Source: Labilibaculum manganireducens (GTDB taxonomy: Bacteria > Bacteroidota > Bacteroidia > Bacteroidales > Marinifilaceae). From it: a DNA stretch of 64,000 nt. The DNA is taken from the NCBI RefSeq assembly GCF_002843385.1, contig NZ_MVDE01000001.1:186001-250000 (forward strand), in the 5' to 3' direction. The notes beneath the pieces were generated by a model that saw nothing but the letters and a program-made list of their open reading frames with translations, was not told the DNA's origin and did not search any database. A program made the translations under genes and the position numbers. Positions 4,207 through 43,708 of the stretch are shown piece after piece; positions within the stretch are counted from its first letter, which is position 1, and every line of letters starts with the position of its first letter.

Positions 4207-6342
4207 TTATTTCTTCCTCCAAATCGTCATCTGCGCTATGGTATGCTGAAATTTCCGTGACGTTTCACGAATTACAAAAGGAACATCCCTGGGCTCATCC
4301 AACAAATCGAAATGTTCCCTCAAAATGTTCTTTAAACCATCGAATGATGTAAAAGGTTCACCATCTTTTCGGTATCCTCCTACCCATTTATCAACTTCGG
4401 TAAATTCTTCGAGCCAAGTATAGGGTGAAGTAAGAACCAAAATTCCACCATCATTAATCCTCATATGAATATCTTGCAAAAACTTAATAGGATCGTACAA
4501 TCTATCGATTAAATTGCCTGCAAAAACCAAATCGTATCCGGAATAAATGGGTTTTAAATTGCACGCATCAGCCTGAAAAAATTCTACGCTGTCACGAACA
4601 GAACCCAAGTCATGATCCACCAATTTAATTTCCTGATGACTCGTTAGTTTCCCTTCTTCCTGTCGGATATACTTTAACTTTCCGCTTTCTTTCAACTGGG
4701 TTCCAATGCGAATAAAACGAGCTGAAAAATCCAAACCTGTTACCTTATCGAAATATTTCGCCAGCTCGAAAGTCGTTCTGCCCGTTGCACATCCAATATC
4801 CAATGCATTCCCTTTAGTAAGGCCTTTTAAATGATTTTTGATAAGAGCAAGACAAGCTTTGGAATAATCTTTCACACCAAAATATTCCTCTCCATACTGG
4901 AATTCACAATATTGCGATACTAAACTATCCGTTTCATAGTAATCCGTTTCAATTTCCACCTCCTGATCTGATTCAATGTATCGAAAACCTGCATGCTGAA
5001 AAAAATGACGGCGAAAAGCATAACGGGAATCACGAATGGCCAGATTTCCTGTTGATATCCAGGATCCACCTTTAATCAGATTGTGTTTAGCATCGAAAGT
5101 TGGCGTTGAAAAATCATCGTAAAACGGATGAATCTCAAAACCGTCCAAGCCTGAAATAGGCATCTCTGTCCATTGCCACACATTCCCAATTACATCATAA
5201 AAACCACCAGTTTCAAATTTATCCACCGGACAAGAAGAAGAATAATACTCCAAATTTATATTTCCGGGAGCCATTTCCCATTCCGGTTGATCTGCAATAT
5301 TAAATGAATCGCGCAAACGATAATACTCCGCCTCGGTTGGCAAGCGCAAAGTTTTGCCTGTCTTCGCAGATTTCCAGTTACAGAAAGCCTTTGCTTCCAG
5401 ATAATTCACTTCTACAGGCCAATTCCAAGGCATTTCAATCATCTCGAGCATGGTACGAAACTTCCATTCGCTTCCTTCTTTCAGCCACCACAAAGGATGC
5501 TCACATTTTTTATAAGTCACCCAGCCCCAGCCTTCTTCCGTCCACCATTTTTCTGTTTTGTATCCATCATCGTCAACAAAAGCCTTAAACTCCTCATTCG
5601 AAACCAAAAACTTCGATGCATGAAATGATTTAATTTTAGATTGGAATTCTCCAAACTCATTGTCCCAGCCATACAGGGCATTGTCCTTGCCTTTTCCTAT
5701 TCTTACCTTTCCCGATTTCACTTTTAACAACTCGTTGACCGGAGCATCTCCCCATTCCATACAAATCTTAAACAGCAAATTGGGTTTTACCAAATGGATA
5801 GGCAACTGACGAATCAATACCGATGATGTTTCGATATGAATTCGCTGATGCTCTATTCCCATCATTATTACCCAAAACTGACTTTCCCAATTGATAGGAA
5901 TTGTCAGCGGAAGCTCTAAAATCAGCTTCTCAATCATCTTCTTTGCCTCATTACGATAAGCCAGAGTTTCCTGCGAAGTTGGCCATTCGTAATGTTTGTC
6001 ATTCAAATCATCCCACGACATTTCGTCAACACCAACTGCAAACATCGATTCAAATTTTGGATTCAATCTATCAGTAATGATTCCTGCCAATATCAATTTA
6101 TTTACAAAAAAGGTGGCTGTATGTCCAAAATAAAAAGCCAGAGGATGGCGCAATGGATCAGCCCGGTGTAAAAATGCCTCTTGTCCGTTTAAGCAATCGT
6201 ATAAGAGTTCATCCAATTCCCATGTCTTTCTAAAATAGTTGAGAATCTCTTTTCTTTTTTCTTCCGGATTCCCTTGGTTCAATATCGGTGTTTTAGTCAC
6301 CAATAAATCCTGATGACTCTTTGTTTCTATCATATTTTCCAT
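4207..6342 (-). CDS. ovoA: OvoA: 5-histidylcysteine sulfoxide synthase with C-terminal methyltransferase
   Basis: OvoA is a non-heme iron enzyme that joins cysteine and histidine through oxygen-dependent C-S bond formation, and its C-terminal domain N-methylates the mercaptohistidine product to give ovothiol A. Three parts are visible: an N-terminal DinB-like domain (about 35-190) with a likely first iron ligand H74 and the HX3HXE motif H165-H169-E171; a formylglycine-enzyme/sulfatase-modifying fold (about 210-455) with GNVWQWTE and GGSW; and a SAM methyltransferase (about 470-711) with motif ALDIGCATGR at 513-522. The 711-residue length fits full-length OvoA rather than EgtB, which lacks the methyltransferase. 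No ovothiol C-S lyase gene is nearby. It is monocistronic on this strand. Confidence 0.92.
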   Translation of the reverse strand: MENMIETKSHQDLLVTKTPILNQGNPEEKRKEILNYFRKTWELDELLYDCLNGQEAFLHRADPLRHPLAFYFGHTATFFVNKLILAGIITDRLNPKFESMFAVGVDEMSWDDLNDKHYEWPTSQETLAYRNEAKKMIEKLILELPLTIPINWESQFWVIMMGIEHQRIHIETSSVLIRQLPIHLVKPNLLFKICMEWGDAPVNELLKVKSGKVRIGKGKDNALYGWDNEFGEFQSKIKSFHASKFLVSNEEFKAFVDDDGYKTEKWWTEEGWGWVTYKKCEHPLWWLKEGSEWKFRTMLEMIEMPWNWPVEVNYLEAKAFCNWKSAKTGKTLRLPTEAEYYRLRDSFNIADQPEWEMAPGNINLEYYSSSCPVDKFETGGFYDVIGNVWQWTEMPISGLDGFEIHPFYDDFSTPTFDAKHNLIKGGSWISTGNLAIRDSRYAFRRHFFQHAGFRYIESDQEVEIETDYYETDSLVSQYCEFQYGEEYFGVKDYSKACLALIKNHLKGLTKGNALDIGCATGRTTFELAKYFDKVTGLDFSARFIRIGTQLKESGKLKYIRQEEGKLTSHQEIKLVDHDLGSVRDSVEFFQADACNLKPIYSGYDLVFAGNLIDRLYDPIKFLQDIHMRINDGGILVLTSPYTWLEEFTEVDKWVGGYRKDGEPFTSFDGLKNILREHFDLLDEPRDVPFVIRETSRKFQHTIAQMTIWRKK

Positions 6343-6507
6343 AAAATTTCAGCTTTGAATATTCCATTTTCATTGCAAAAATGAAGTTAATAATTATTCT
6401 TATCCATTCAAAAATCCATTGCAATGCAATACGAGTAATCAACAATAAAAAGATTGTTTTTGTTTTAAGAAATTTTAGTAATTTAATAAAGCACTAATTC
6501 TCAACAC

Positions 6508-6750
6508 ATGAACTATCTTATTTTTTTACTAATTGGACTTGTAGCCGGATGGATTGCGAGCATTTTATTAAAAGGTCGTGGTTATGGCATGATAATCAAC
6601 CTGATTTTAGGTGTTATTGGTTCTTTTATAGGAGGTACAATCTTTGGTATTTTTGGGATACATTTAAATGGATTCTTTGGTTTGCTAATATCTGCAACAG
6701 TAGGAGCTATTGTTCTTATTTGGGTAGTAGGCTTATTTTCGAAGAAATAA
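6508..6750 (+). CDS. GlsB/YeaQ/YmgE family small membrane protein
   Basis: This 80-residue protein is almost wholly hydrophobic, with three predicted membrane helices and glycine-rich turns (LIGLVAGWIAS, ILGVIGSFIGG, ATVGAIVLIW). That pattern is typical of the transglycosylase-associated/YeaQ family, whose members are often stress-induced; no enzymatic activity is established. The start lies just after an AT-rich leader and the C-terminus is a short KK tail. It stands alone between two minus-strand genes, so it must have its own promoter. Confidence 0.88.
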   Translation: MNYLIFLLIGLVAGWIASILLKGRGYGMIINLILGVIGSFIGGTIFGIFGIHLNGFFGLLISATVGAIVLIWVVGLFSKK

Positions 6751-6768
6751 GGCTCTTTTTACAGCATT

Positions 6769-6792
6769 CACCCCTTTAGGGATTTGGGTTAC
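6769..6792. repeat. Copy of a dispersed CCCCTTTAGG-type intergenic repeat
   Basis: The sequence cacccctttagggatttggg lies in the gap between the YeaQ-type gene and the ABM monooxygenase gene. Two further related copies are at 31901-31928 and 32003-32030. Similar CCCCTAAAGGGG motifs are, from memory, common between genes in Bacteroidota. The gap lies between two 3' ends, so a role in transcript ends is possible. Confidence 0.5.
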
Positions 6793-6810
6793 ATTTATGA
6801 ATCCAAAACA

Positions 6811-7128
6811 CTATTTCTCGAAAAAATAATCCGATTCCACCTTACAGATTCGAACAGCATATTTTTCGTACCAATTCTCTTTGCCTCTTTCCTGAGCAAT
6901 TTGATGTGCCGGATGCGCCTGCCATTTTTTAATGGCGTCCAGACTCTCCCAATACGAAACTGTTATTCCAACTTCATTTCTGGCCGATTCGGCACCCAGA
7001 AAACCTGGTTGTCTTCTCGCCAATTCCATCATAGAATCTGCCATTTCATCATAAGCATTATCTTCACCAGTTTTTACCGATGAAAATACTACCGCATAAT
7101 AAGGTGTTCTTATCGTTTTAGCAATCAT
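6811..7128 (-). CDS. Antibiotic biosynthesis monooxygenase (ABM) domain protein
   Basis: The 105-residue protein is a single ferredoxin-like ABM domain. The signs are a small-protein length typical of the family, the segment QPGFLGAESARN, a central VSYWESLDAIKKWQ strand-helix and the closing WYEKYAVRICKVE. Family members act as cofactor-free monooxygenases or heme-degrading enzymes, but many have no known substrate, so no specific reaction is assigned. The ATG overlaps the stop of the upstream LysR-type regulator by 4 bp (ATGA at 7125-7128), which implies a single transcript and coupled translation. Confidence 0.85.
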   Translation of the reverse strand: MIAKTIRTPYYAVVFSSVKTGEDNAYDEMADSMMELARRQPGFLGAESARNEVGITVSYWESLDAIKKWQAHPAHQIAQERGKENWYEKYAVRICKVESDYFFEK

Positions 7129-8072
7129 TTTTCTATAAAATTAGTTTTAACAATCTCCTTATCTTCCTCTCTTAGCATCTGCGAAGGCACACTCTCTTTA
7201 ATCACCTGACTAATTGCATTCAACAGATTAAGTCTCACCTCTGTTTTTAACGAAACCATACTTATTTCTCTTACCTTCTTCTTCCCTTTTATCTCCTTAA
7301 TCATTTCTTCCTGCTCCGAAGGAATCATTAAAGTAGATAGTTCAGGCAGGAAAGTAATTCCTCCCTTATATTCCACAATTCTACGTAAAGCGTCGATATT
7401 GTTACTCTCATATATAAAATTTCCATTCTGATTGGGCCGGGCACTGCAAATATTAGTCACCTGATCCATAAAACAATTTCCTTCTTTAAGCAACCAAACA
7501 TCCGAAAAATCCAATTTACTAATGTCTATTTTATCCTGTGAATACAACTCATGTTTATCCGACACATACAAATAAAACTGCTCGTAAAATAAAGGAACCA
7601 AATCAAGATTACTCTTTAATTCTATTGGTGTTGAGATAATTCCGGCATGAAAAATTCCGGTTTTAATTCCCTGCAAAATATTTTCGGTGATTGCCTCCTG
7701 AATCTTTATTTTAATCCTGGGATACTTTTTATTCAACTCATCGATAAACAAAGGCACAAGAAATGGCGATAAGGTTGGAATAATGCCCAGACAAACCTCT
7801 CCCTGAATCTCTTCAGACAATTGAATGGCAAAATCTTCCAATTGCTTCGATTCTGTCACCAAAGATTGTGCTTTTTCCAAAAAAGCAATTCCATTTAAGG
7901 TCGGTTCCACATTTTTGGTCGACCGATCGAAAAGAATAATACCCAACTCATCCTCTAAGGCCTGTATCTGCAAACTAACCGCCGGCTGCGATACTCCCAT
8001 CGATTTGGCAACACCTATATAACTTCCCAAACGGCCTAAGGCCAAAGCGTATTTTAATTGTTTTAGGGTCAT
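7125..8072 (-). CDS. LysR-family transcriptional regulator (OxyR-like)
   Basis: The N-terminal winged helix-turn-helix (MTLKQLKYALALGRLGSYIG..., then GVSQPAVSLQIQALE) is classic LysR, followed by a substrate-binding domain (about 90-300). An in-frame ATG lies 69 bp further upstream, but family members start at MTLKQL, so 8072 is chosen, giving 315 residues. Sequence style (LGIILFDRSTKNVEPT) is closest to OxyR-type regulators, but I cannot assign an inducer and do not see a confident pair of redox cysteines. It is co-transcribed with the ABM protein downstream and may control it or a stress response. Confidence 0.88.
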   Translation of the reverse strand: MTLKQLKYALALGRLGSYIGVAKSMGVSQPAVSLQIQALEDELGIILFDRSTKNVEPTLNGIAFLEKAQSLVTESKQLEDFAIQLSEEIQGEVCLGIIPTLSPFLVPLFIDELNKKYPRIKIKIQEAITENILQGIKTGIFHAGIISTPIELKSNLDLVPLFYEQFYLYVSDKHELYSQDKIDISKLDFSDVWLLKEGNCFMDQVTNICSARPNQNGNFIYESNNIDALRRIVEYKGGITFLPELSTLMIPSEQEEMIKEIKGKKKVREISMVSLKTEVRLNLLNAISQVIKESVPSQMLREEDKEIVKTNFIEK

Positions 8073-8218
8073 TCGATAACTTTTTCTTATTTGAATGATG
8101 AAGTTAATTAAAAATATCAATCTCTCAGCTATCAGATCCACAGTTCTATCTTCGGATAAGAGAAAAACGGATCAATAAAATTCTGATTAATACGTTTAAA
8201 ACTGCATTGTTTTTTAAC

Positions 8219-8254
8219 TTTGTCCACTTACTTAAAACAGCAATATTATCTTTG
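8219..8254 (+). promoter_or_regulatory. Candidate Bacteroidota promoter for mtnN-luxS
   Basis: TATCTTTG at 8247-8254 matches the Bacteroidota -7 consensus TAnnTTTG. A TTTG at 8219-8222 could be the -33 element, but the 24-bp gap is a little longer than the usual 19-21. The start codon of mtnN follows 31 bp after the -7 box. The -7 box is seen directly; its use as a promoter is inferred. Confidence 0.4.
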
Positions 8255-8285
8255 TACTTGATACTTACTACTTGATACGCAAAAA

Positions 8286-8990
8286 ATGAAAATTGGAATT
8301 ATAGGCGCAATGGAAGTCGAAGTAGTTAAACTTCGTGATCAATTGTCCAACAAAAAAGAACAAAAAAAGGGCTCCTTTGTTTTCTATACGGGTACTTTAA
8401 ACAATGTTGAAATTGTTTTGCTTCAATCGGGAATTGGAAAAGTAAATGCAGCTATCGGAACCACTTTACTCATCGACAACTTTAAACCTGATTATATAAT
8501 TAATACAGGTGCTGCGGGAGGTTTTCCCGGTGATTTAAAAGTTGGCGATATTGTAATATCCGAAGAGGTTATTCATCATGATATGGATTGCACTGTTTTT
8601 GGTTATAAAACAGGACAAGTTCCCGGAATGCCGGCAAGTTTTGCTGCCAATGAGAAATTAATCTCTTTGGCCGATAAATCGGTTCACCAATTAACCGATT
8701 TACAGACAAAAAAGGCAACTATTCTAACTGGTGATCAGTTCATGAATAATGCCGAAGCAACCAACAAGATAAAAACTTTATTCCCTGCCGCCGAAGCTGT
8801 TGAAATGGAAGGTGCCGCAATTGCACAAACCTGTTACCAGTTCGATATTCCATTTGTGGTTATCCGATCTATTTCGGATATTGCAGGACAAGAGAATGCA
8901 ATGGAATATCAGGAATTTGTTGAAATAGCTGCGGTAAATTCAGCCAAAATGGTGACAGAAATGGTACGTGAGTTAGGAAATCAGAAATAA
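8286..8990 (+). CDS. mtnN: 5'-methylthioadenosine/S-adenosylhomocysteine nucleosidase
   Basis: This enzyme hydrolyses methylthioadenosine and S-adenosylhomocysteine to adenine plus the thio-ribose sugar; the S-ribosylhomocysteine formed is the substrate of LuxS. The protein has the expected length (234 residues), opens with MKIGIIGAMEVEV, and carries INTGAAGG, DQFMNN, the substrate-binding VEMEGAAIAQ and the catalytic-loop RSISDIAG. It is followed 11 bp later by luxS, so the two steps that detoxify S-adenosylhomocysteine and make autoinducer-2 precursor are in one operon. Confidence 0.97.
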   Translation: MKIGIIGAMEVEVVKLRDQLSNKKEQKKGSFVFYTGTLNNVEIVLLQSGIGKVNAAIGTTLLIDNFKPDYIINTGAAGGFPGDLKVGDIVISEEVIHHDMDCTVFGYKTGQVPGMPASFAANEKLISLADKSVHQLTDLQTKKATILTGDQFMNNAEATNKIKTLFPAAEAVEMEGAAIAQTCYQFDIPFVVIRSISDIAGQENAMEYQEFVEIAAVNSAKMVTEMVRELGNQK

Positions 8991-9001
8991 AAAAAGAAAA
9001 A

Positions 9002-9481
9002 ATGGAAAAAATACAGAGCTTTACAGTAGACCACAATAAATTGAAAAGAGGGATTTATGTATCCCGTAAGGATAAAGTTGGAGCAGAGACATTAACAAGT
9101 TTCGATATCAGAACCAAATTGCCGAATCAGGAACCGGCAATGGATATTCCTGCAATGCACACCATGGAGCATTTGGGTGCTACCTTTTTAAGAAACCATA
9201 AAGAATGGGCAGACCGCACAATTTATTTTGGCCCAATGGGATGTCGTACCGGCTTTTATGCAATTTTCAACGGCGATTTGGAATCGAAAGATATCGTAAA
9301 AGTAACTCAGGAAATGTTCGATTTTATGGCTGATTTTAACGGCGAAATTCCAGGAACAAACAAAATAGAATGTGGAAATTACATGAGCCACGATTTACCA
9401 ATGGCCAAATGGGAATCAAACAAATTCAAAACTGAGGTTTTGGAGCATCTTACTGACGAGAATTTGAATTATCCTGAATAA
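9002..9481 (+). CDS. luxS: S-ribosylhomocysteine lyase (autoinducer-2 synthesis)
   Basis: LuxS splits S-ribosylhomocysteine into homocysteine and DPD, the AI-2 precursor. The metal ligands are visible as H53 and H57 in PAMHTMEHLGATF and C124 in IECGNY, with the catalytic C81 in GPMGCRTGFY. Length (159) is standard. It is the second gene of the mtnN-luxS operon and is followed directly by a strong terminator. Its main role may be methyl-cycle recycling; true AI-2 signalling would need a receptor, and none is in the window. Confidence 0.98.
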   Translation: MEKIQSFTVDHNKLKRGIYVSRKDKVGAETLTSFDIRTKLPNQEPAMDIPAMHTMEHLGATFLRNHKEWADRTIYFGPMGCRTGFYAIFNGDLESKDIVKVTQEMFDFMADFNGEIPGTNKIECGNYMSHDLPMAKWESNKFKTEVLEHLTDENLNYPE

Positions 9482-9499
9482 GGATTAAAAGTATACAAC

Positions 9500-9543
9500 A
9501 AAAAGAGACTGTTTTTCTTATTAAAAGGCAGTCTCTTTTTTTG
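9500..9543 (+). terminator. Rho-independent terminator after luxS
   Basis: A 12-bp perfect stem, aaaaagagactg at 9500-9511 paired with cagtctcttttt at 9529-9540, is followed by a T run. It closes the mtnN-luxS operon. Confidence 0.85.
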
Positions 9544-9586
9544 TTCAATTTTCCTTATATTTAGTGATAATAAATAGCTCCATGCA

Positions 9587-10036
9587 ATGAAGATTTCCGG
9601 ATCAAGGTTTCTTATTATTACAATTTTAATATTACTGATTCCCATTTATGCAAATTGGAAACTTATAGTATATGGGGAGAAAACAGAAGGTATTGTAGTA
9701 AAAACAGTAGAAGAAAATAGTGGCATGTTACTCTCTTTTTATTCCGTTATTGCCTACGAAGCCAATCAAAAGCAATTTACCTTAAAAGGTCCTGAGAATG
9801 TTGAATATCCTATTGGAAAAAAATTTCAGATTCTTCACTTACAAGAAGATCCTCAAAATGCGATTATTTTCTCAATAAAAGGATTCTATTTAAACAAATT
9901 CACTTCAACTTCGTTTGTGTTATTCGTTTTATGGATCGCATTTTACTTAAGCTTTTCACCAAAGAGTGCAAACCGGGACTCAGGAAAGCAAAAAATGAAT
10001 TCAAATAAAAAAAATTGCAGGAAAAAATTAGTTTAA
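9587..10036 (+). CDS. Small two-helix membrane protein (DUF3592-like)
   Basis: The 149-residue protein has an N-terminal membrane helix (about 7-28), an extracytoplasmic stretch of about 80 residues with GEKTEGIVVKTVEE and a second helix (about 106-122). A short lysine/asparagine-rich cytoplasmic tail follows. The order helix, T-x-G-x-V beta domain, Y-P-I-G-x...V/I-x-Y/H, helix resembles DUF3592 proteins, but the match is weak. The start is an ATG 50 bp after the luxS terminator. No function is assigned. Confidence 0.55.
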   Translation: MKISGSRFLIITILILLIPIYANWKLIVYGEKTEGIVVKTVEENSGMLLSFYSVIAYEANQKQFTLKGPENVEYPIGKKFQILHLQEDPQNAIIFSIKGFYLNKFTSTSFVLFVLWIAFYLSFSPKSANRDSGKQKMNSNKKNCRKKLV

Positions 10037-10224
10037 ACCTGATTTTGTATCTCCCAATATCCGAAGGATAAAACCTACCCTTATTCATTTCACATTCCAA
10101 ACATTTTAATTCTAAATTGCAACAAGTATGCTGCGAAAACTAAACAAATCATAAGGAAAACCAGTCAGATTTTACTAATTTGGCAGGCAAACATTCTATA
10201 AGTACTAATACTAAACCTAACAAC

Positions 10225-12339
10225 GTGAAAAAGACTTTTCTTTATGTACTTGTTGCAGGTATTGGTTTAACCGCCTGCAATAGTAACAAAAGTGAGCAAA
10301 AGACTGAAAATCCGTTTTTTGCAGACTACAACACTCCTCACCAAACAGCTCCATTTGATTTAATTAAATTTGAGCACTTCGAGCCGGCTTTCATGGAAGG
10401 CATGAAGCAAGGTCGTGCAGAAATTGATGCTATTGCCAACAATACTGAAGCACCAACTTTCGAAAATACGATCGAAGCAATGGATAAAGCAGGACAATTG
10501 TTGACTAAAGTCAGCAATGTATTTTTTAATCTTTCGGGTTCGGATACCAATGATTCCATTCAGGCTCTTTCGAAAAGATTGGCTCCTGAATTGACAAAAT
10601 ATGGTGCGGATATTGACCTCAACGAAAATTTGTTTAAAAGAGTTAAAGCTGTTTATGAGCAAAAAAATGCATTAAACTTAGACGTTGAAGCAAATACACT
10701 TCTTGAGAAAACGTACAAAAGTTTTGTTCGTGGTGGTGCCGATTTAGATGCCGGTAAAAAAGCAAAACTTCGTGCAATCGATGAAAAATTATCATTATTA
10801 ACTCTGCAGTTTGGAGAGAACCAATTGGCAGAAAACAATGCATTTGTATTGCTTATTGATAATGAAGATGATTTAGCTGGTCTTCCGGAATCTGTTAAAG
10901 CGGCTGCCGCTGAAACTGCAACTGCAAAAGGAGAAGAAGGAAAATGGGCTTTCACTTTAGACAAGCCAAGTATGCTTCCTTTTCTTCAGTACGCAGATAA
11001 CCGCGATCTAAGAAAAAAAATCTACATGGGTTATGTGAACCGTTGTAATAACGACAATGAGTTCGACAACAAAAAAGTATTGTCAGAAATTGCTAACCTA
11101 CGAGTAGAAAGAGCTCAATTATTTGGATTTAAAAGTCATGCAGATTATATTCTTGCCGAGAATATGGCAAAAACTCCTGAGAAAGTATTCGAATTATTGA
11201 ATAAACTATGGGATGCTGCTCTTCCAAATGCAAAACTGGAAGCTGCTGAAATGCAAAAAGTGATTGACAAAGAAGGTGGTAAATTCAAACTAGCATCTTA
11301 CGACTGGTGGTACTATGCTGAAAAAGTAAAGAAAGCGAAATACAATTTAGATGAGTCTGAACTTCGTCCATACTTCGAAATCAATAACGTTCGCGACGGT
11401 GCTTTCGAATTGGCTCACCGCCTTTATGGAATCAATTTCATCGAAAGAAATGACATCTCAAAATATAATAAGGATGTTCAGACCTGGGAACTGCAGGAAG
11501 CAGATGGAACTCATATTGGAATCTTCTATTTAGATTATTTCCCCAGAGCTTCGAAGCGTGGTGGTGCATGGATGAACAGCTTCCGCAAACAATCGGGTTG
11601 GCAAACAGAAAATGCAATCACTCCAATTATCTGTAACGTATGTAACTTTACCAAGCCTGTAGGCGATCAGCCAGCTTTGCTAAGTGTTGATGAAGTGGAA
11701 ACTTTATTCCACGAATTTGGCCACGCTTTGCACGGATTCCTTTCAAGATGCAAATACAACACTCTTTCTGGTACTGCAGTATCACGCGATTTTGTTGAAC
11801 TGCCATCGCAGGTAATGGAAAACTGGTGTTTAGAGCCTGAAATGTTGGCATTGTATGCCAAACATTACCAAACCGGAGAGGTAATTCCTGTTGAATTGGT
11901 TAAAAAAGTTCAGGATGCCGGTAAATTTAATCAAGGATTTGCTACTGTTGAATACCTTGCTGCTTCGTTGTTGGATATGAAATATCATACATTATCTGAA
12001 GTTCAGGATATCGATGTTCCAAAATTTGAAGATGATTATCTAAAATCAATTGGCTTGATTCCTGAAATCTATTCAAGATATCGTTCTACTTACTTTGCTC
12101 ACATTTTTAGCGGTGGATACTCTTCAGGATACTACGCTTACATCTGGGCTGGAGTATTGGATTCCGATGCTTTTCAGGCGTTCAAGGAAACTGGTTTATT
12201 CAACAAAGAAACTGCGGCAGCTTTCCGTAATAACGTTTTAGCAAAAGGTGGTACTGAAGATCCAATGGAATTGTATAAACGATTCAGAGGCGCAGAACCA
12301 AATATTGATGCTTTGTTAATCAAACGTGGTTTAAAATAA
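10225..12339 (+). CDS. M3-family oligopeptidase lipoprotein (Dcp/PrlC type)
   Basis: This is a zinc metallopeptidase of the thimet oligopeptidase family that digests short peptides. The zinc site is F-H496-E-F-G-H500 with the third ligand E525 in RDFVELPSQ. A GTG at 10225 gives MKKTFLYVLVAGIGLTAC, a lipoprotein signal with the lipidated cysteine at 18; the longer TTG frame from 10180 would put 15 polar residues before it, so the GTG is preferred. The result, 704 residues, is a normal length for the family. It is likely anchored in the periplasm or outer membrane, unlike the cytoplasmic E. coli enzymes. It has its own terminator. Confidence 0.93.
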   Translation: MKKTFLYVLVAGIGLTACNSNKSEQKTENPFFADYNTPHQTAPFDLIKFEHFEPAFMEGMKQGRAEIDAIANNTEAPTFENTIEAMDKAGQLLTKVSNVFFNLSGSDTNDSIQALSKRLAPELTKYGADIDLNENLFKRVKAVYEQKNALNLDVEANTLLEKTYKSFVRGGADLDAGKKAKLRAIDEKLSLLTLQFGENQLAENNAFVLLIDNEDDLAGLPESVKAAAAETATAKGEEGKWAFTLDKPSMLPFLQYADNRDLRKKIYMGYVNRCNNDNEFDNKKVLSEIANLRVERAQLFGFKSHADYILAENMAKTPEKVFELLNKLWDAALPNAKLEAAEMQKVIDKEGGKFKLASYDWWYYAEKVKKAKYNLDESELRPYFEINNVRDGAFELAHRLYGINFIERNDISKYNKDVQTWELQEADGTHIGIFYLDYFPRASKRGGAWMNSFRKQSGWQTENAITPIICNVCNFTKPVGDQPALLSVDEVETLFHEFGHALHGFLSRCKYNTLSGTAVSRDFVELPSQVMENWCLEPEMLALYAKHYQTGEVIPVELVKKVQDAGKFNQGFATVEYLAASLLDMKYHTLSEVQDIDVPKFEDDYLKSIGLIPEIYSRYRSTYFAHIFSGGYSSGYYAYIWAGVLDSDAFQAFKETGLFNKETAAAFRNNVLAKGGTEDPMELYKRFRGAEPNIDALLIKRGLK

Positions 12340-12395
12340 TTTATAAATTCCTGACTAAAGGCAATTTGTCGTTAGCAGATTTGCAAAAACATAAA

Positions 12396-12430
12396 GAATC
12401 CGGTTCACGATATGAACCGGATTCCTTTTT
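12396..12430. terminator. Bidirectional terminator between the M3 peptidase and tetR genes
   Basis: A 12-bp perfect stem, gaatccggttca at 12396-12407 and its complement at 12413-12424, has T runs on both sides and sits between two convergent genes. Confidence 0.85.
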
Positions 12431-12456
12431 ATTTATAATCTCAAATTGAATAAAAT

Positions 12457-13044
12457 CTAATCTTCGTATTCGTTTTTTTTAATGTACATATTCAAGACTT
12501 TTTGCTGCATCTCATCAATTGGATAACCGTCGGGCTCCAAAACAAAATTCATCGCAATTCCATCCAACATTGAGACAAGAAATCGGGTTTCCATCTTAGG
12601 GTTTTCAGAACCTTCTTTACTAAAATATTTTCTAATTATATTTAATTTCGGACTTACGATTTCGTGCAATTCATGTTTGTACTGGTCAACCACCCCGGGC
12701 TGAAGTCTCAAAGAATAAAAAAGGCGAAAGAAATCAAGATTTTTTTCAACAGAATCAAAATAATCGTCAATAAAAAACAGCAATTCAACCTCCTGCAATT
12801 TACCATCCTGATTTGGATCTACTCCATCAAATATTAGATGTACTGCCTCAGCAACAATTGTGTGAAGCAAATTCTCCTTCGTTTCAAAATGAGAAAATAA
12901 CTTTTCCTCACTAATACCAACTTCACCGGCAATCATAGCACCTGTTGTCGAGAAATAGCCATCCCGCACAAAAATTTCCAAAGCAATATTTAGAATCTCT
13001 TTCTTCAATAAATCATTTGCTGGATTATTTTTCGTTTCTGCCAT
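12457..13044 (-). CDS. TetR/AcrR-family transcriptional regulator
   Basis: The N-terminal 50 residues form a TetR helix-turn-helix: ILNIALEIFVRDGYFSTTGA, then GISEEKLFSHFETKENLLHTIV. The remaining 140 residues are helical, as expected for the ligand-binding and dimerisation part. Length (195) is normal. The ligand and targets cannot be read from the sequence. It is divergent from the unknown protein gene at 13659, separated by a 614-bp gap, so autoregulation or control of that gene is possible but unproven. Confidence 0.88.
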   Translation of the reverse strand: MAETKNNPANDLLKKEILNIALEIFVRDGYFSTTGAMIAGEVGISEEKLFSHFETKENLLHTIVAEAVHLIFDGVDPNQDGKLQEVELLFFIDDYFDSVEKNLDFFRLFYSLRLQPGVVDQYKHELHEIVSPKLNIIRKYFSKEGSENPKMETRFLVSMLDGIAMNFVLEPDGYPIDEMQQKVLNMYIKKNEYED

Positions 13045-13658
13045 AATCTGAAATTTTAATAATTAAGCCACTACTCCCTTTGTAAGTTACAACAGAATTT
13101 AGCTTAATTCCAAAAATTTTTATTTTCGGCAACACCGGCTTTATTTCGAAACTAAATTATATTCAGACAAATCCCGGCAAAAAGTCAGGACATTGTATTA
13201 GTTCATTTTCATTTTTTTTTGTTTCAAAAAAAAGACCAGAGTTCTTCAAACTTTAACAGATTTATAAGTCAAAATCGTCATTGAATTTTCGTGCAGAACT
13301 TTGAATACTAAAAAAAATGCTATTCAACAATTCGCTTTACTCAATTTTTTATACTCCCTACTAAATATTTTTGGCACTTCACTCATATATTTTTTTTTCA
13401 TAAATGCTTTTTAAGAATATTTACCGACACACAATGACGAATGAGTTATTTTTAGGTATTAAATGACATTTTTATTACACTAATACAATTTAATAATACC
13501 AATTTATGGTGTACATAAAATTTAAGTGATTGGACAATTAGATCATCGATTCCAAATCATTTAAAACAGATTAAACAAAGTCCGCAGAAACTCTGTGGCA
13601 TGTTATGGATAATAAGATCCATCTGTAACATCAAAAAAAATAAAAAAAAGACAATTTT
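13045..13658. other. 614-bp AT-rich intergenic region
   Basis: This gap lies between the tetR start and the unknown gene at 13659. It is strongly AT-rich with many T and A runs. I see no convincing open reading frame or RNA gene. The only clear structure is a short hairpin, ccgcaga/tctgtgg at 13582-13588 and 13592-13598, in the probable leader of the downstream gene. The unusual length for this genome suggests a complex control region for one or both flanking genes. Confidence 0.5.
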
Positions 13659-15179
13659 ATGAAAAGCTCAACAAAAGAAATGGAGAATGTTGCCACATTA
13701 GTTGCAAACAGCCAAACCGGTGGAGATGAATTCTACGCAGAATTGCAAAAAAAAGCCCAGGATGCAGTCGCTTCAATTTTTAAATCACCATTGTATCCAA
13801 TTCAGTATCCTTCTCAAGGAGATTTTCTATGGAACTGGCAAAACATGAATAACGACTTTAACGAATCAACCTACAATTACATTAATTCAGTTGTAGCTCC
13901 CGGGGATATTACAAACACTGCTAAGCTTGGATCACCGGGAAGTTTTCCAAACGCTTATGTTCAAATATTGAATTCAATAATGTACTCGCTGAACACCAAA
14001 GATCAAGGTCAGTTGGATCAAGCAACAAAAAATGCTTCGACACAGGGAGGAACAGTCGTTTCTGATTACCAAACTTGTTACGGTAACATCTCTGCTGAAG
14101 AGATGGAAAAAGTGAAGGTGAAAACCAAACTGGACTATATTATTGGTTATATTTTTGGTAGTGTTTGGAGTGGAAAAGAAGCTGCAGGCGAAAGCCCAAT
14201 CAGCTATACCCAAATGACTGAAGCCAGAAACTTAAAAAAATTATTGCCTAACCGCCCTGCATCAAGTGATCAGGTAATTTCAGACGTTTCTATCTATCTA
14301 AATATAATGAGTCCGGTAAACGCTCTGCAGGATGCACTGCAAAACGGCTCGTGGATACTAACATCATTAAAAGATTGTACTGAATTTCCAACTAAAAAAA
14401 ATGGTGGAATTAAAACAGTAAATCCTAATACCGGAGTAATTTCTGACAAATTCAATGTTGGGTATAGTATCAATAAATCAAAACAGGAGATTTCAAACGA
14501 CTTGCAAAATAAAGGCCGTACCATTGAAATTAAAATGGAAACACATTCAGCTTCAGGAAGTGAAATGAATGTACATATTGAAGGTCAGACAGGATTTAGT
14601 GTTGGTTCCTGGTTGAAATTTGGAATCTCAGGCGGAGGTTCATACGACATGTCGAAAGCTGAAGGAACAAGTACTGATTGTTCCGTTTCAATGAAGTGGG
14701 AAGGATATGCAATGATACCAATGGGTCCTGCTGCATGGCAACAAGCTACTGAAAAAGGATGGTATTACGCTGATCCAATTTCTCAAGCTGTAGCTAACGC
14801 AGAAAAGGATATTAGCGGATTTAAGTTTGTGATTAAACCAACTTTCAATATGGACACTTTTAAAAATGGTGGAAACTTTGGTATGCTAAACAACCTTTTA
14901 ATTGCTAACTACCCAACAGTTGAAATCACTTATCAAAATGCAAATTTTAAAAAATTTAAAGAAAGTTGGGAAGAACATGCATCGGGAAATCTGACACTTT
15001 TTGGTTTTATTAAACTAGGTAGCTTCAGTCAGGGAGTTTACAAAAGCTCTTTCAAAGAAAGTTCTGACAACAGTTCATTTAAAGTTACATTCTCTGCTTC
15101 GGATGCTATTGTTAGCGTTCCTGAACTGCAGCAAAGTGCATATGCTATTGGAGGTGCAGTTACAAACCCAGGCGCTTAA
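13659..15179 (+). CDS. Unknown protein, larger member of an IQYPSQG-motif paralogous pair
   Basis: I do not recognise this 506-residue family. It has no signal peptide and no membrane helix. It shares several blocks with the protein encoded downstream: IQYPSQG (48-54) with W-x-x-QNMN, SFPNAY, GGIKTVNPNTGVISD (249-263), GGNFGMLNNLLI, and a C-terminal AIGGAVTNPGA. About 110 residues (roughly 115-225), with GYIFGSVWSGKEA, are absent from the paralogue. A glycine/serine-rich beta segment (about 290-350) containing GSWLKFGISGGGSYDMS and the alternating C-terminal part suggest a beta-rich fold, perhaps a lectin- or toxin-like one; that is speculation. It is monocistronic or co-transcribed with the paralogue 116 bp downstream. 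Confidence 0.8.
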   Translation: MKSSTKEMENVATLVANSQTGGDEFYAELQKKAQDAVASIFKSPLYPIQYPSQGDFLWNWQNMNNDFNESTYNYINSVVAPGDITNTAKLGSPGSFPNAYVQILNSIMYSLNTKDQGQLDQATKNASTQGGTVVSDYQTCYGNISAEEMEKVKVKTKLDYIIGYIFGSVWSGKEAAGESPISYTQMTEARNLKKLLPNRPASSDQVISDVSIYLNIMSPVNALQDALQNGSWILTSLKDCTEFPTKKNGGIKTVNPNTGVISDKFNVGYSINKSKQEISNDLQNKGRTIEIKMETHSASGSEMNVHIEGQTGFSVGSWLKFGISGGGSYDMSKAEGTSTDCSVSMKWEGYAMIPMGPAAWQQATEKGWYYADPISQAVANAEKDISGFKFVIKPTFNMDTFKNGGNFGMLNNLLIANYPTVEITYQNANFKKFKESWEEHASGNLTLFGFIKLGSFSQGVYKSSFKESSDNSSFKVTFSASDAIVSVPELQQSAYAIGGAVTNPGA

Positions 15180-17928: not shown

Positions 17929-19167
17929 ATGATGCCAACTGAAATTTATCCAAAAATATTTATTTACAATCCTACCTGCGAAATGGCCATTGCCAACGGA
18001 ACGGTTAGCTTTATGCCCAATAAAATATTAACAAAGTTTGAGCAGGATCTGGATGTATTGCCGATGTTTTTTGCAGATAAAATGGATACAGTATTGGTTC
18101 ATCAATTACCTGATCCGCAATTTATTGATCTGCTGATAAACGCAGGTGTAACTATCCCTAATTTCAAACCACTAAGCGCAGCATTAGCAGACTCTGATTT
18201 TATTAAAATGCCAAAAGGCAGTCTTCATCCCTGGGGCTGGAGTCCAAGAATTCATCACATTTTCAAACCATTTAAAGAGTCTTGCAGTCCTGATTTTTTA
18301 AATCAACCAAATGCCTGTTGGAAAGCAGAACATCGTGATTTATACAGCCGTAAAAAAGCTCTTGAAATTGGAACTGATGCAATTAACCACAAAAAAAACT
18401 CGCTGTTTATTGATCCCGATCAAACAGCACAAGTCTGCACCAGTGTTTTAGAGGTAGAACACCTAATGAGCAAATGGAAGCAAATTGTAATTAAAACACC
18501 ATTAAGCTCAGCAGGAAGAGGCATACAGATTCTTCGGTACGCCAGCTTAAATGAATCCATTATTCAATCGATTAATGGGATTCTTGCTTCACAATCCTAT
18601 GTAATGGTTGAACCTTTTTTTAATAAATTATTCGATTTCTCGCTTCAATACTATTGCAATGGGAAGAGTGAAGTGAATTATTTGGGATTGGGATTTTTTG
18701 AAACGGATTCGAAAGGACAATACCTGAGCAACTATCTGGGGGGTATTCCAAGCAAAATGGAAAAACTATTAACCGGAAAATACATTCAAGAATTGGAATC
18801 CTGCATGTCGGAAACTCTTGTTGATTCGGATATCGCAACCAACTATACGGGTTATTTTGGAGTTGATTGTATGTTGGTTTTAGATCGTGAAGAAAAGCTG
18901 AGAATTCATCCTTGCCTGGAGATTAACCTTCGGTACAACATGAGTACTTTGGCTCTTTTTCTAAACAAAAATATTCGTTCCGGCTCAAAAGGCAATTTTA
19001 AAATCTTTAATCAATTCAAAGCAAGTTTCGACCAATTCCATTTGGAAATGACGAAGAAACATCCACTTGAAATTCAGGATGGAAAATGGGTAAATGGATA
19101 TCTGCCATTGGTAAGTCCATTTCAAAATAAAACTTTTGGTGCCTATATCTTACTCGAAAAGGAATAA
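17929..19167 (+). CDS. ATP-grasp-like protein of unknown substrate
   Basis: The 412-residue cytoplasmic protein shows ATP-grasp features: a lysine-bearing strand and loop VIKTPLSSAGRGIQ (about 186-199), a MVEPFF hinge-like segment, and a metal-site region IHPCLEINLRYNMSTLAL (about 325-342) with E and N in the expected positions. The N-terminal part (FIYNPTCEMAIANG) looks like the preceding domain of such ligases. The substrate is unknown, and no peptide precursor, transporter or pathway gene is adjacent. It is divergent from sfsA and converges with the spondin gene. Confidence 0.7.
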   Translation: MMPTEIYPKIFIYNPTCEMAIANGTVSFMPNKILTKFEQDLDVLPMFFADKMDTVLVHQLPDPQFIDLLINAGVTIPNFKPLSAALADSDFIKMPKGSLHPWGWSPRIHHIFKPFKESCSPDFLNQPNACWKAEHRDLYSRKKALEIGTDAINHKKNSLFIDPDQTAQVCTSVLEVEHLMSKWKQIVIKTPLSSAGRGIQILRYASLNESIIQSINGILASQSYVMVEPFFNKLFDFSLQYYCNGKSEVNYLGLGFFETDSKGQYLSNYLGGIPSKMEKLLTGKYIQELESCMSETLVDSDIATNYTGYFGVDCMLVLDREEKLRIHPCLEINLRYNMSTLALFLNKNIRSGSKGNFKIFNQFKASFDQFHLEMTKKHPLEIQDGKWVNGYLPLVSPFQNKTFGAYILLEKE

Positions 19168-36802: not shown

Positions 36803-37026
36803 AAAACGATAAAAGTTGGCGAACTACTATTACCAAATTAACATCAAAACATGCCTTATAAAATGTTTCTTTTCAGCTATATCTTCGTTAAAAAAGATGC
36901 ATCGTAACATGGCTATGCTTTACTTTTTTGCCTCGATACAGCTAAAAATTAATTCATTTTTATTAAAGTCTGTTTTGAAATTAAATTGGTATAAAACTTG
37001 AAACTCAACTTTTTTAATTAAAAACC

Positions 37027-40770: not shown

Positions 40771-41127
40771 ATGAAACTATTTAAACCCTTCGTAAACCTT
40801 ACAAAATCAGCATCAACCGGAGTTTATACTATTAATTCCGTAGTTTCTTTACCAAAAGACTATGCACTTAGTTCTATAGAACAAGGACTTATAGAGATAG
40901 ACGGAAAAAAAGTATGGTCAGTAACAGCTACAGTAACCACAAACGGTTCGTTAGAAACCGATATTGTTGAATTCGCAGTTCCGCTAAAACAAGGACCTTC
41001 AGATGAAATCAAGAAAGTGAATATGATGGTTAAGCAAGCTTTATCCGGGGATTCTTCAGTAGGAAATCCTGTTGCAGACAACGGTACAGATGTGAATTAT
41101 GATGATGCTCAAATTGATGTTTTATAG
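40771..41127 (+). CDS. Unknown 118-residue protein with acidic tail shared with the next small gene
   Basis: I do not recognise the N-terminal body. It has no signal peptide or membrane helix; it is beta-rich (ALSSIEQGLIEIDGKKVWSV, then alternating VTATVTTNGSLETDIVEFAV). The last 18 residues, NPVADNGTDVNYDDAQID plus VL, align with the C-terminus of the 45-residue peptide encoded 172 bp downstream (GPVEENRTDVDYDDAEVD). The same tail on two different bodies suggests a recognised or modified peptide segment. It has its own terminator. Possibilities are a natural-product precursor with an unusual leader, or a partner protein; neither is proven. Confidence 0.75.
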   Translation: MKLFKPFVNLTKSASTGVYTINSVVSLPKDYALSSIEQGLIEIDGKKVWSVTATVTTNGSLETDIVEFAVPLKQGPSDEIKKVNMMVKQALSGDSSVGNPVADNGTDVNYDDAQIDVL

Positions 41128-41160
41128 TAATTGATTTATTCTTTGACTCAAATTGATTAC

Positions 41161-41190
41161 GGACATTGGCAAAACCAATGTCCATTTTAT
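41161..41190 (+). terminator. Terminator of the 118-residue gene
   Basis: ggacattgg (41161-41169) pairs with ccaatgtcc (41175-41183), followed by attttattt. It resembles the hairpin after the next small gene in its ggaca/tgtcc base. Confidence 0.8.
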
Positions 41191-41237
41191 TTACAATTAC
41201 TTGTTTTCTTATTTAGATACAAAATAAGGCATTCCGA

Positions 41238-41270
41238 TTTTGTAAAGAACTACTTATATATATATATTTA
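41238..41270 (+). promoter_or_regulatory. Candidate promoter of the 45-residue peptide gene
   Basis: ttttg at 41238-41242 and tatattta at 41263-41270 are close to the Bacteroidota -33 (TTTG) and -7 (TAnnTTTG) boxes, 20 bp apart. The ATG follows at 41299. The last base of the -7 box differs from consensus. Confidence 0.4.
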
Positions 41271-41298
41271 GCAATTGTTAAATTAAAATTGAAACATT

Positions 41299-41436
41299 AT
41301 GAATTTATTTGAAGAAAAATTATTAGAAGAAGAAAAATTAGCAGTTGAAGAGTTGAACAATGTTTATGGTGCTGGTCCTGTTGAAGAAAACAGAACCGAT
41401 GTTGATTATGATGATGCAGAAGTAGATAATCCTTAG
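41299..41436 (+). CDS. 45-residue RiPP-precursor-like peptide
   Basis: The frame starts at ATG 41299 and ends at TAG 41434-41436. The acidic, leucine-rich N-terminal half (MNLFEEKLLEEEKLAVEELN) is helical and leads to NNVYGAG (20-26). E-E-L-x-x-V-x-G-A-G resembles the leader end of double-glycine type peptides. The remaining 19 residues (PVEENRTDVDYDDAEVDNP) would be the core and are rich in Asp and Glu with a Thr and a Tyr but no Cys. The tail matches the end of the 118-residue protein upstream. No modifying enzyme, peptidase or exporter is adjacent. It has its own promoter-like and terminator elements. Confidence 0.72.
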   Translation: MNLFEEKLLEEEKLAVEELNNVYGAGPVEENRTDVDYDDAEVDNP

Positions 41437-41469
41437 GAATAAATTAATCACATGAATCAAATTTACACT

Positions 41470-41501
41470 GGACACTAATTGATAATTAGTGTCCATTTTT
41501 T
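41470..41501 (+). terminator. Terminator of the 45-residue peptide gene
   Basis: An 11-bp perfect stem (ggacactaatt at 41470-41480, complement at 41484-41494) is followed by attttttc. Confidence 0.88.
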
Positions 41502-41638: not shown

Positions 41639-43708
41639 ATGCGAAAACTAATTCTAATTTTATTTTGTATTCCTTCTTTCCTTTTGTCATTTGGGCAAAA
41701 AGTAGATTTTGTAGAACAAACATTGGATTCCATTCAAAATATCAATTCCAAAATTGAGTTTTTAAATGATTGGACAGGAAAAAACTACAGGAATTTCCCC
41801 GAGGCTGTTCTTTATTATTCTAATAATAATCTTGAATTAGCAAAATCTGTGAATAATTATTCAGGAGCTGGTGATGCATTAATTAGAATTGGTCTTATAA
41901 ACAAAAAAGATGATAACTATTCAGAAACTCTTAAATTTTATAATCAAGCATTGCAAAATTATGAACTAGGAATTGATTCTATTAGGATAAATAAAGCTTT
42001 ACTTAATAGGGCTAATATTTATAACAATATTGGAAAATATGATTTAGCTTTAAAAGATTATTTTAAAAGCCTTACTTATTTCAAAAAAAGTAATAATTTA
42101 AAAATACTCACAAGTATTTACAATAATTTAGGTCTTGTCTATAAGAATATTAAAGATTATAAAAATGCCCTTAAATACTATAATGAATCTGCTAAAATCA
42201 GTTTTGAAAACAACATAACTTCTACTCTTTATTTTTCAAACACTAATATTGCCAATATATTATCTATCCAGAATAAATTTCAAGAAGCTCTCTCCTACTA
42301 CAATAAAAATCTTGAAATTTTAAAAGAGAAACCCAACAAGTACCAACTTGCCCAAACCTATCACAACATCGGATCTTGTTTTATGGAAATGGAGCAAGAT
42401 TCAATGGCCTTGGAATATTTAAATCAAAGCTTGCTGTTAAAGAAAGAAATAGGAAATAAAAATCTAATAATATCTACCATTAATAGTCTAGCTCACGTTT
42501 ATTATCAGCAAGAGTTATATACCAAGGCTTTAATATACCGTAAAAAAGCACTTACACTTGCGGTTGAGACAAAAAACATTGAATATCAGAAAGATTGCAA
42601 CCGGGAGCTTTTCGCAATTTTCGCACAATTACACCAAGCAGATAGTGCAATACACTATATATTAAATTATGAATTGCTAAAAGACAGTATTTTCAACCTT
42701 AAAAATCTGAAACAGATTGCAGAGATTCAGGAAAAATATGAATCGGAGAAAAAAGAAACGCAAATTACTTTATTGGAAAAAGTAAACAAAAGTAGAATGT
42801 GGCAACGAAACAGTTTAATAGTATTGTTGATTTTACTGATTGGCTACGCTATTTTTATTGTCCGCTCGTATTATATAAATAAAAAAACGCATCGATTACT
42901 TCAATTGCAAAATGAGAGGATTCAATGGCATAAAACTCTTTTAGACCAAAAAAACGTGGCTTTATCAGATTCCAACAAAACCAAAAACAGGTTGTTTCAG
43001 ATCATTTCGCACGATCTGCGCTCTCCTTTAGCATCTGTATATAATATTGCTCAGTTGATCAAAATTTTTATTCAGCAAAGAAAATATCAATTACTCGAGG
43101 AAAGCTGCCACGACATGGAAGAATCCATAAGTAATGTATTGAGTCTAACCGACAATCTTCTATCCTGGTCTTTAAATCAATCAGGTAAACTGCCCTACAA
43201 ACCAGCTATTCTATCTCTTAAACCACTTTTAGAAAATAATCTTCGAACCTATTCGAGTGTAGCAAAACAAAAAAACATCCATCTACAATTACTACTTGAA
43301 GAAACTGTTATGGTTTTTGCCGATCGCCAAATGCTGGATACAGTAATTCGTAACCTAATTAACAACTCACTAAAATTCACGAAGTCAGGAGGAGTTATTG
43401 CGATCGGCCTAAATCAAAGTGATAACTTCGTTGAATTGTGGATAAAAGATAGCGGAATAGGAATTTCTGAAGATCAAATTGCGCATCTTTTTGAAATAGA
43501 CCATTCTCAATCTTATAACGGAACCAATGGCGAAAAAGGAAATGGATTAGGTTTACTCCTTTGTAAGCAATTTATTGAACAAAACAAAGGAGAAATACGG
43601 GTTGAGAGCACTTTAAATTTGGGAACAACCTTCCGGATTACAATTCCTGCTGCCGAAAATACAAATGAAATTTCAACCATTCTTTCTTCAAACGCAAATG
43701 CAAATTAA
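41639..43708 (+). CDS. TPR-containing sensor histidine kinase
   Basis: The 689-residue protein has a signal peptide (about 1-19), a periplasmic TPR region (about 60-370; repeats such as YDLALKDYFKSLTYFKKSNN, YKNALKYYNESAKIS), a coiled segment and a membrane helix (about 394-413). A HisKA domain with IISHDLRSPLASVYNIAQ and an HATPase with NLINNSLKFTKSGG, DSGIGISEDQI and GNGLGLLLCKQF follow. No receiver or DNA-binding domain is attached, and no response regulator gene is adjacent. It lies 202 bp after the 45-residue peptide gene, so a link with that peptide is possible but only positional. Confidence 0.92.
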   Translation: MRKLILILFCIPSFLLSFGQKVDFVEQTLDSIQNINSKIEFLNDWTGKNYRNFPEAVLYYSNNNLELAKSVNNYSGAGDALIRIGLINKKDDNYSETLKFYNQALQNYELGIDSIRINKALLNRANIYNNIGKYDLALKDYFKSLTYFKKSNNLKILTSIYNNLGLVYKNIKDYKNALKYYNESAKISFENNITSTLYFSNTNIANILSIQNKFQEALSYYNKNLEILKEKPNKYQLAQTYHNIGSCFMEMEQDSMALEYLNQSLLLKKEIGNKNLIISTINSLAHVYYQQELYTKALIYRKKALTLAVETKNIEYQKDCNRELFAIFAQLHQADSAIHYILNYELLKDSIFNLKNLKQIAEIQEKYESEKKETQITLLEKVNKSRMWQRNSLIVLLILLIGYAIFIVRSYYINKKTHRLLQLQNERIQWHKTLLDQKNVALSDSNKTKNRLFQIISHDLRSPLASVYNIAQLIKIFIQQRKYQLLEESCHDMEESISNVLSLTDNLLSWSLNQSGKLPYKPAILSLKPLLENNLRTYSSVAKQKNIHLQLLLEETVMVFADRQMLDTVIRNLINNSLKFTKSGGVIAIGLNQSDNFVELWIKDSGIGISEDQIAHLFEIDHSQSYNGTNGEKGNGLGLLLCKQFIEQNKGEIRVESTLNLGTTFRITIPAAENTNEISTILSSNANAN

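Follow-up and report, generated by a model that had tools for sequence, protein, structure and literature searches.

Two neighbouring small genes in the bacterium Labilibaculum manganireducens encode proteins that end in the same kind of acidic tail, and the question is what such a tail, carried on two otherwise different proteins, might do. The genes lie in a stretch of 64,000 nucleotides (hereafter the window; contig 1, positions 186001–250000, of the genome labelled G000), and the original prediction took them for a candidate peptide natural-product or signalling pair. The signalling half of that proposal gained support, from linkage to a histidine kinase in two families and from exchange of the tail tip together with the sensor, whereas the natural-product half, a graspetide, was not supported. 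Our reading is that the tailed protein or peptide is probably a signal and the adjacent TPR-sensor histidine kinase its receptor, with pherotype-like specificity.

Two small genes end in a common acidic tail

The first gene (40771..41127, plus strand), an ORF with homologues that include proteins from a distant family, encodes a 118-residue protein with an N-terminal domain (about residues 1–90, predicted beta), a short variable linker and, as delimited from sequence and alignment, an acidic tail (residues 99–118, NPVADNGTDVNYDDAQIDVL; 41065..41124, plus strand), the last five residues of which (114–118) form a variable tip. The second (41299..41436, plus strand), an ORF with relatives in genome G035 only, encodes a 45-residue peptide made up of a double-glycine-type leader (residues 1–25, ending LAVEELNNVYGA; 41299..41373, plus strand) and a 20-residue core predicted from sequence comparison (GPVEENRTDVDYDDAEVDNP; 41374..41433, plus strand). 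BLASTP aligns the tails alone (residues 100–116 with 27–43; 11 of 17 positions identical, 15 of 17 positive; E 1e-06 for this single pairwise comparison), which confirms that two otherwise differing proteins share it. That the tails differ by conservative changes only, as first proposed, was slightly too strong: 15 of the 17 positions are positive, but G/R and A/E differ. Each gene is followed by its own terminator-like GGACA...TGTCC hairpin with a T-rich tail (41161..41183 and 41469..41495, both plus strand; hairpin scan), as predicted. Four terminator-like sites fall within 1.1 kb, where shuffled sequences average 0.4; the remaining two are a single palindrome inside the 118-residue gene.

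The tail is neither private to the strain nor a low-complexity end found on many proteins. With the 45-residue peptide as query (E <= 10), it occurs in its own 5.3-Mb genome at these two genes only, and is thus not a common acidic end; homologues of the 118-residue protein, 60–95% identical, are present in 17 of 56 Marinifilaceae genomes. That search matched 20 genomes at E <= 1, of which three weak matches (G006, G042 and G044; partial or within long frames) were dropped. Tail residues T106, D107, D111 and D112 do not vary among the 16 homologues aligned (G032, which equals G033, is left out), and four computed cores have net charges of −5 to −9. The collection of viral contigs and the PDB sequences contained no relatives, PHROGs gave no match with E below 0.1, and no PDB fold matched the 118-residue model at E <= 0.001. 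The short peptide, searched against 393 genomes of the order, reached a best E of 0.02 outside its own genome. A 52-residue ORF on the minus strand in another family of the order (L073, G615:C157), found through its leader alone, has a typical double-glycine leader, NNEELNTVKGG.

The tailed gene is kept with a TPR-sensor kinase in two families

Named relatives of the 118-residue gene come from seven loci: five Labilibaculum or Marinifilaceae contigs, Labilibaculum filiforme and Marinifilum. The MARINIFILACEAE synteny, read as far as each contig reaches, runs from pst-like genes and a response regulator, which we take these to be, through a PhoR-like kinase, an aldo/keto reductase, the 118-residue gene and a TPR kinase to an ABC-F ATPase; in the window, the PhoR-like kinase, the reductase, the TPR kinase and the ABC-F protein were checked against Pfam. 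One genome (G040) has an extra minus-strand ORF in an otherwise kept order. Short genes aside, the 118-residue gene lies directly 5' of the TPR kinase at all 16 readable Marinifilaceae loci. An orthologue of this kinase (51–78% identical to that of the window) is present in 16 of the 17 carriers, the contig of the seventeenth (G030) ending before it, and within Marinifilaceae it is confined to carrier genomes; the best kinase of a non-carrier is 38% identical (G025) and has no tailed gene upstream. Paralogous TPR kinases, too, lack a small tailed protein upstream at the 14 loci read, at one of which (L130) the contig starts just 5' of the kinase. No response regulator adjoins the TPR kinase in Labilibaculum.

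The same pairing recurs far outside the family. A profile of the 118-residue protein (A1), run against 395 genomes of the phylum, matched an intact 118-residue ORF ending DDPEDEGSTVTKYDEAEEE in G132, of family f25 (E 1e-04); partial matches in G097 and G171 are left out of the counts. Homologues are present in 8 of 92 f25 genomes (ten matched at E <= 0.1; G859 and G427, partial or within long frames, are excluded), and these tailed proteins align with those of Marinifilaceae over their full length. All eight loci have the same order: a tailed protein of 113–132 residues, a TPR histidine kinase of 785–817 residues whose gene follows directly or overlaps, and, 3' of it, a LuxR-type regulator of 216–219 residues. 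At the two loci checked with Pfam, the kinase has TPRs, HisKA_3 and HATPase_c and the regulator Response_reg and GerE. The kinase orthologue (E <= 1e-100) occurs in exactly the eight carriers among the 92 genomes. A joint profile of both families found, among the 395 genomes, only its own genome, seven f25 genomes and one partial match within a 912-residue frame (G353, not counted as a homologue), so the distribution is patchy in this sample. As the kinase types differ, HisKA in the window and HisKA_3 in f25, what is conserved is the pairing of a small tailed protein with a TPR-sensor kinase; its one-to-one retention in two families argues that the two work together.

The sensor is a predicted TPR solenoid outside the inner membrane

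The kinase (689 residues; 41639..43708, plus strand), recognised as the predicted receptor from Pfam, NCBIfam and co-occurrence, has FimS (NF053520) as its best NCBIfam model. At 258.8 bits it stays below the curated cut-off of 600 bits and is therefore called FimS-like rather than FimS. The AlphaFold2 model of the sensor (pLDDT 88.6) starts with a hydrophobic helix at the N terminus, continues with eight TPRs and closes with a long exit helix; the TPR domain precedes the transmembrane helix and is predicted to lie outside the inner membrane. Its best structural matches in the PDB are peptide-bound LGN TPR domains. An Asn in helix A of five successive repeats (123, 162, 203, 243 and 282) is invariant in 15 of 15 sequences; Asn contacts to the peptide backbone are a feature of TPR domains, according to the part of PMC3601957 available to us. 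Sequence entropy (13 of 16 genomes) peaks at 1.5 in TPRs 2 and 3, has its minimum of 0.7–0.8 in TPRs 5 and 6 and is 1.1–1.3 in TPRs 4, 7 and 8. In 15 of 16 genomes the ectodomain has a net positive charge; G029, at −2, is the exception.

Tail tip and sensor half lie in one exchanged block

Over 17.5 kb, the window and G028 are 94–97% identical in all blastn pieces, and homology is absent between 41108 and 42236, save for 46 bases of the short core that match the tail of G028; the only other gap is 162 bp (36829–36992), upstream of the PhoR-like operon. The left edge at 41108, where blastn homology to G028, G033 and G034 ends, falls by base-level alignment on position 2 of the Ala codon that follows Y-D-D, inside the tail; at the right edge (42236, kinase codon 200) homology resumes. 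In Labilibaculum the block holds the last five residues of the tail, the short gene and the sensing half of the kinase (codons 1–199, comprising the hydrophobic N-terminal helix and TPRs 1–4; 41639..42235, plus strand), although the start of the kinase gene is still 52–62% alignable between the window and G028. The two kinases are 99% identical in the kinase domain and 44% in the sensor. The edges are the same against G033 and G034, which carry the allele of G028 and so form one contrast with it.

A second, independent contrast has much the same structure. G049 and G050 are 98.7% identical to base 340 of the small gene, at most two codons further than in the first contrast, and homology is then lost until about kinase codon 220; the first 90 residues of the small protein are identical, the kinase domains 98% and the sensors 46% identical. 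The three short genes of G035 sit in an insertion bounded by that Ala codon, give or take two codons, beyond which the tail region and kinase are 82–86% like those of relatives. The sensor of the window is closest to that of G035 (60%), which belongs to a different genus and is the only other genome with short peptides. Between about +400 and +1150, G028, G033 and G034 share the allele with the tip ETTNP at 99–100% identity, amid adjoining blocks of 75–94% identity (wider flanks mostly 85–100%), and this allele thus also appears to spread. In the later TPRs, from +1150 to +1600, the kinase region of the same three genomes is mosaic once more, though less strongly, with 75–88% identity between blocks of 95–100%. 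Insertions in G039 broke the long alignments of L055 with L049, L054 or L052. No exchanged block was seen in f25, where the nearest pair available (G246/G194) differs throughout and is not a close one.

The trees of sensor and kinase disagree, in tests made with 15 rows and with clades picked after the identity tables had been seen. All four groupings tested were rejected: with the sensor alignment, p-AU is 7e-15 for the kinase clade and 1e-07 for G049+G050, and with the kinase alignment it is 2e-33 for the sensor-type clade and 5e-07 for G000+G035. Given flanks and kinase, tip and sensor are correlated with a partial r of 0.77 (p 0.0002) in 16 genomes and 0.59 (p 0.0002) in 13, falling to 0.28 (p 0.05) in 11 genomes with a single ETTNP member and to 0.22 (p 0.13) in the 10 genomes without that type. 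The association of tip with sensor thus depends largely on the ETTNP type, for which it is clear, and is no more than suggestive among the remaining types; the sensors of G038 and G039 are 71% identical and their tips different, and the one kinase at the G035 locus has three tip sequences next to it. As no more than 1.1 kb spans tip and sensor, linkage alone may account for their co-transfer. Their joint exchange nevertheless suggests that the tip matters to the sensor half and the sensor half to the tip. A hypervariable sensor, a conserved kinase domain and swapped alleles, as in pherotype systems, are thus all found in Marinifilaceae. In the Gram-positive systems, the sensor varies and the kinase domain is conserved (PMC4008528) and signal alleles match receptor alleles (PMC5629823), as far as the excerpts of these papers go.

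An unlikely alternative, although the likeliest of those considered after signal and receptor, is that the 118-residue protein is an internal partner of the kinase, an accessory subunit or inhibitor that docks via its tail and is not secreted, the short peptides being decoys or derivatives. The protein has neither a recognised export signal nor a double-glycine leader, no other form is present in 15 of 17 carriers or, within the reach of the motif scan, at any of the eight f25 loci, and it is retained one to one with the kinase in both families; AlphaFold2, moreover, packs the tail as strands (pLDDT 72–81), without agreement among the five models (mean pLDDT from 82.7 down to 50.1). A cytoplasmic partner, however, would miss a TPR domain that has a hydrophobic helix at its N terminus and precedes the transmembrane helix, short forms with C39-type leaders exist, and diversification and exchange fit an external signal better. 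It is improbable that an outside agent such as a phage or bacteriocin diversifies the TPR domain while the tip changes through proximity only. The proximity is real and the sensor variation extreme (24–48% per 25 residues between near-identical kinases), but the left edge falls at the same tail Ala codon in two independent pairs and also bounds the insertion in G035, five other TPR-kinase sets are not diversified (68–100% per 50 residues, with no such swap), and the pairing of small gene with kinase is kept across the phylum.

Short forms carry double-glycine leaders

Returning to signal and receptor, the short forms suggest a route by which the tail could leave the cell. Standalone tailed peptides are present in 2 of 56 Marinifilaceae genomes (2 of the 17 carriers), one in the window and three in G035; matches in G023 and G044, partial or within long frames, are not counted. 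By reading of the sequences, all four have Leu-12, Glu-8 and Leu-7 before GG or GA: the leader of the window ends with G-2 and A-1, and those of G035 include MNFFEEQLTNEELNKVFGG. This agrees with the double-glycine consensus of L-12, E-8, L-7 and GG, GA or GS before the core, as given in the excerpted text of PMC6363468. Pfam and NCBIfam leader models all score below their cut-offs, and the matches to ComC (13.6–15.1 bits, cut-off 20.4) and, for one peptide, bacteriocin_sig (15.5 bits, cut-off 15.7) are leads only. The predicted C39 cut coincides with the start of homology to the 118-residue tail. The short core of the window has 42 identical bases in common with the 118-residue tail of G028, and two of the three short cores of G035 have 44 with that of G039, which indicates that short and long forms exchange DNA. 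A strict motif scan saw no double-glycine short gene at the eight f25 loci.

An exporter does co-occur, as the original prediction had suggested checking: a C39 match is present in all 17 carriers and in 17 of the 39 non-carriers (Fisher p 4e-05, relatedness ignored), and four carriers, G035 among them, have a single one. No C39 exporter lies within the window; that of the same genome is far from the locus, beside an HlyD-type gene and a radical-SAM cassette. That a C39 exporter serves the tailed short peptides is plausible, and a relaxed motif found no plausible precursor peptide beside the exporter in four carriers (L086, L087, L089 and L091). The tailed peptides resemble C39/PCAT double-glycine peptides in their leader residues and differ in that the 118-residue form has no such leader and the exporter is encoded elsewhere in the genome.

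The exporter loci have features of their own. That of L. manganireducens (L085, G000:C38:22500-42000, 5389–14515) is a separate RiPP-like locus with the C39 exporter, the HlyD-type protein, a radical-SAM peptide maturase that scores 343 bits with GG_samocin_CFB (cut-off 300) and a 62-residue ORF with a VKGG leader. At the same exporter in G029 (L097, G029:C5, 10074–14522) there are genes for 306, 750 and 404 residues, which resemble lanthipeptide LanB/LanC parts. The cassette at the C39 exporter seems to change between species. In G026 (L088, G026:C1), a graspetide-ligase-like ATP-grasp gene lies just upstream of the exporter (about 7260–8213; 112.9 bits to TIGR04187, cut-off 350).

The resemblance to graspetides that had been proposed is confined to an acidic core with a Thr; here no ligase lies beside the gene and none is consistently present in the carriers. 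The ligase search used one model, TIGR04187, and none of the 56 genomes reached its curated cut-off. Only two of the 17 carriers (G026 and G037) have a match of more than 70 bits, and G035, with its three short peptides, has none at E <= 0.001. With this one model, a co-occurring graspetide-type ATP-grasp enzyme, among the checks first proposed, thus failed to appear in the 17 carriers. The observation that no ATP-grasp enzyme lies beside the tailed genes was correct, and no RiPP-maturation enzyme of any kind was recognised in the conserved neighbourhood. The ATP-grasp-like gene of uncertain family elsewhere in the window (17929–19164) has only a weak match (29.8 bits, cut-off 475) to LdmS, an L-amino-acid ligase model. 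RiPP maturation beside the gene was accordingly rejected as a candidate, there being no such enzyme recognised in the conserved neighbourhood and, by the one model, no consistent ligase among carriers. That the tail is the core of a bacteriocin or of a RiPP such as a graspetide, regulated by the kinase, is a reading to which we give very little credence. In its favour are a Thr followed by acidic residues and weak matches of the leaders, none reaching its cut-off, to ComC, Bacteriocin_IIc, bacteriocin_sig and Mersacidin; against it is the lack of a modifying enzyme in the conserved neighbourhood, of a consistent graspetide ligase (by the one model), of any immunity gene that we noticed and of a cleavable leader on the 118-residue form.

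Discussion

A peptide signal and its receptor are the simplest account of these observations. The acidic tail would serve as the signal; its receptor would be the TPR domain, predicted outside the inner membrane, of the neighbouring histidine kinase. The tail would be produced at the C terminus of the 118-residue protein, and some strains would additionally make it as a 20-residue core that follows a double-glycine leader and is cut and exported by a C39 exporter. Its constant part, xEDNxTDVDYDDA, may dock along the TPR groove, and specificity would come from the fit between its variable last four or five residues and the first TPRs, which vary as well. The exchange of tip and sensor half as one block in Labilibaculum and its relatives may keep incompatible versions apart, as in Gram-positive pherotype systems. 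What the analysis shows directly are the sequences themselves, the linkage in both families, the exchanged block, the disagreement between trees, the behaviour of the control kinases and the leader motif; secretion, including export of the 118-residue protein, binding, specificity and a quorum function are what we infer.

The arrangement recalls ComX/ComP of Bacillus and CSP/ComD of Streptococcus, in which a small signal gene also lies beside a histidine kinase. It differs from them in its TPR-solenoid sensor and Gram-negative host, in a very acidic core that occurs on two unrelated N-terminal parts and in the absence of a regulator adjoining the kinase in Labilibaculum. RRNPP receptors are cytoplasmic and, to our knowledge, have no kinase domain, whereas the receptor proposed here is a predicted membrane histidine kinase; the likeness is that RapI and RapF are among the structural matches of the sensor (ranks 34 and 47). 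In Rap/Phr pairs, a TPR superhelix binds the short peptide in its concave face and an Asn holds the peptide backbone (PMC3601957, in part). With FimS of Porphyromonas gingivalis, the kinase shares its best model, although below cut-off, and eight predicted TPRs, the number given for the FimS periplasmic domain in a 2024 study (PMC11053733), which, in its available portion, calls the signal unknown and suggests a polypeptide. A survey of Bacteroidales RiPPs mentions, in the excerpts at hand, a partial ComX-like protein in B. fragilis without the key Trp (PMC10352776). A signal/TPR-kinase pair of the present kind in Bacteroidota was not found in the open literature searched, as far as the accessible portions of those papers extend.

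The wider proposal, that the new small-protein family and its TPR kinase form a Bacteroidota peptide-signal system, found in two distant families, using two unrelated leaders and, in Marinifilaceae, occurring as exchangeable pherotype-like alleles across genera, is one that we advance tentatively and hold a little below even chances. The exchange edges and the two-family linkage indicate which residues and genes are worth testing. Pherotype systems with matching alleles of a ribosomal peptide and a kinase receptor are Gram-positive in the portions of PMC4008528 and PMC5629823 available to us; if our reading is true, this would be a pherotype system in Gram-negative Bacteroidota, with a TPR solenoid as the receptor. 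This reading also suggests a class of ligand for TPR histidine kinases and, if true, FimS-type TPR histidine kinases may be peptide receptors in general.
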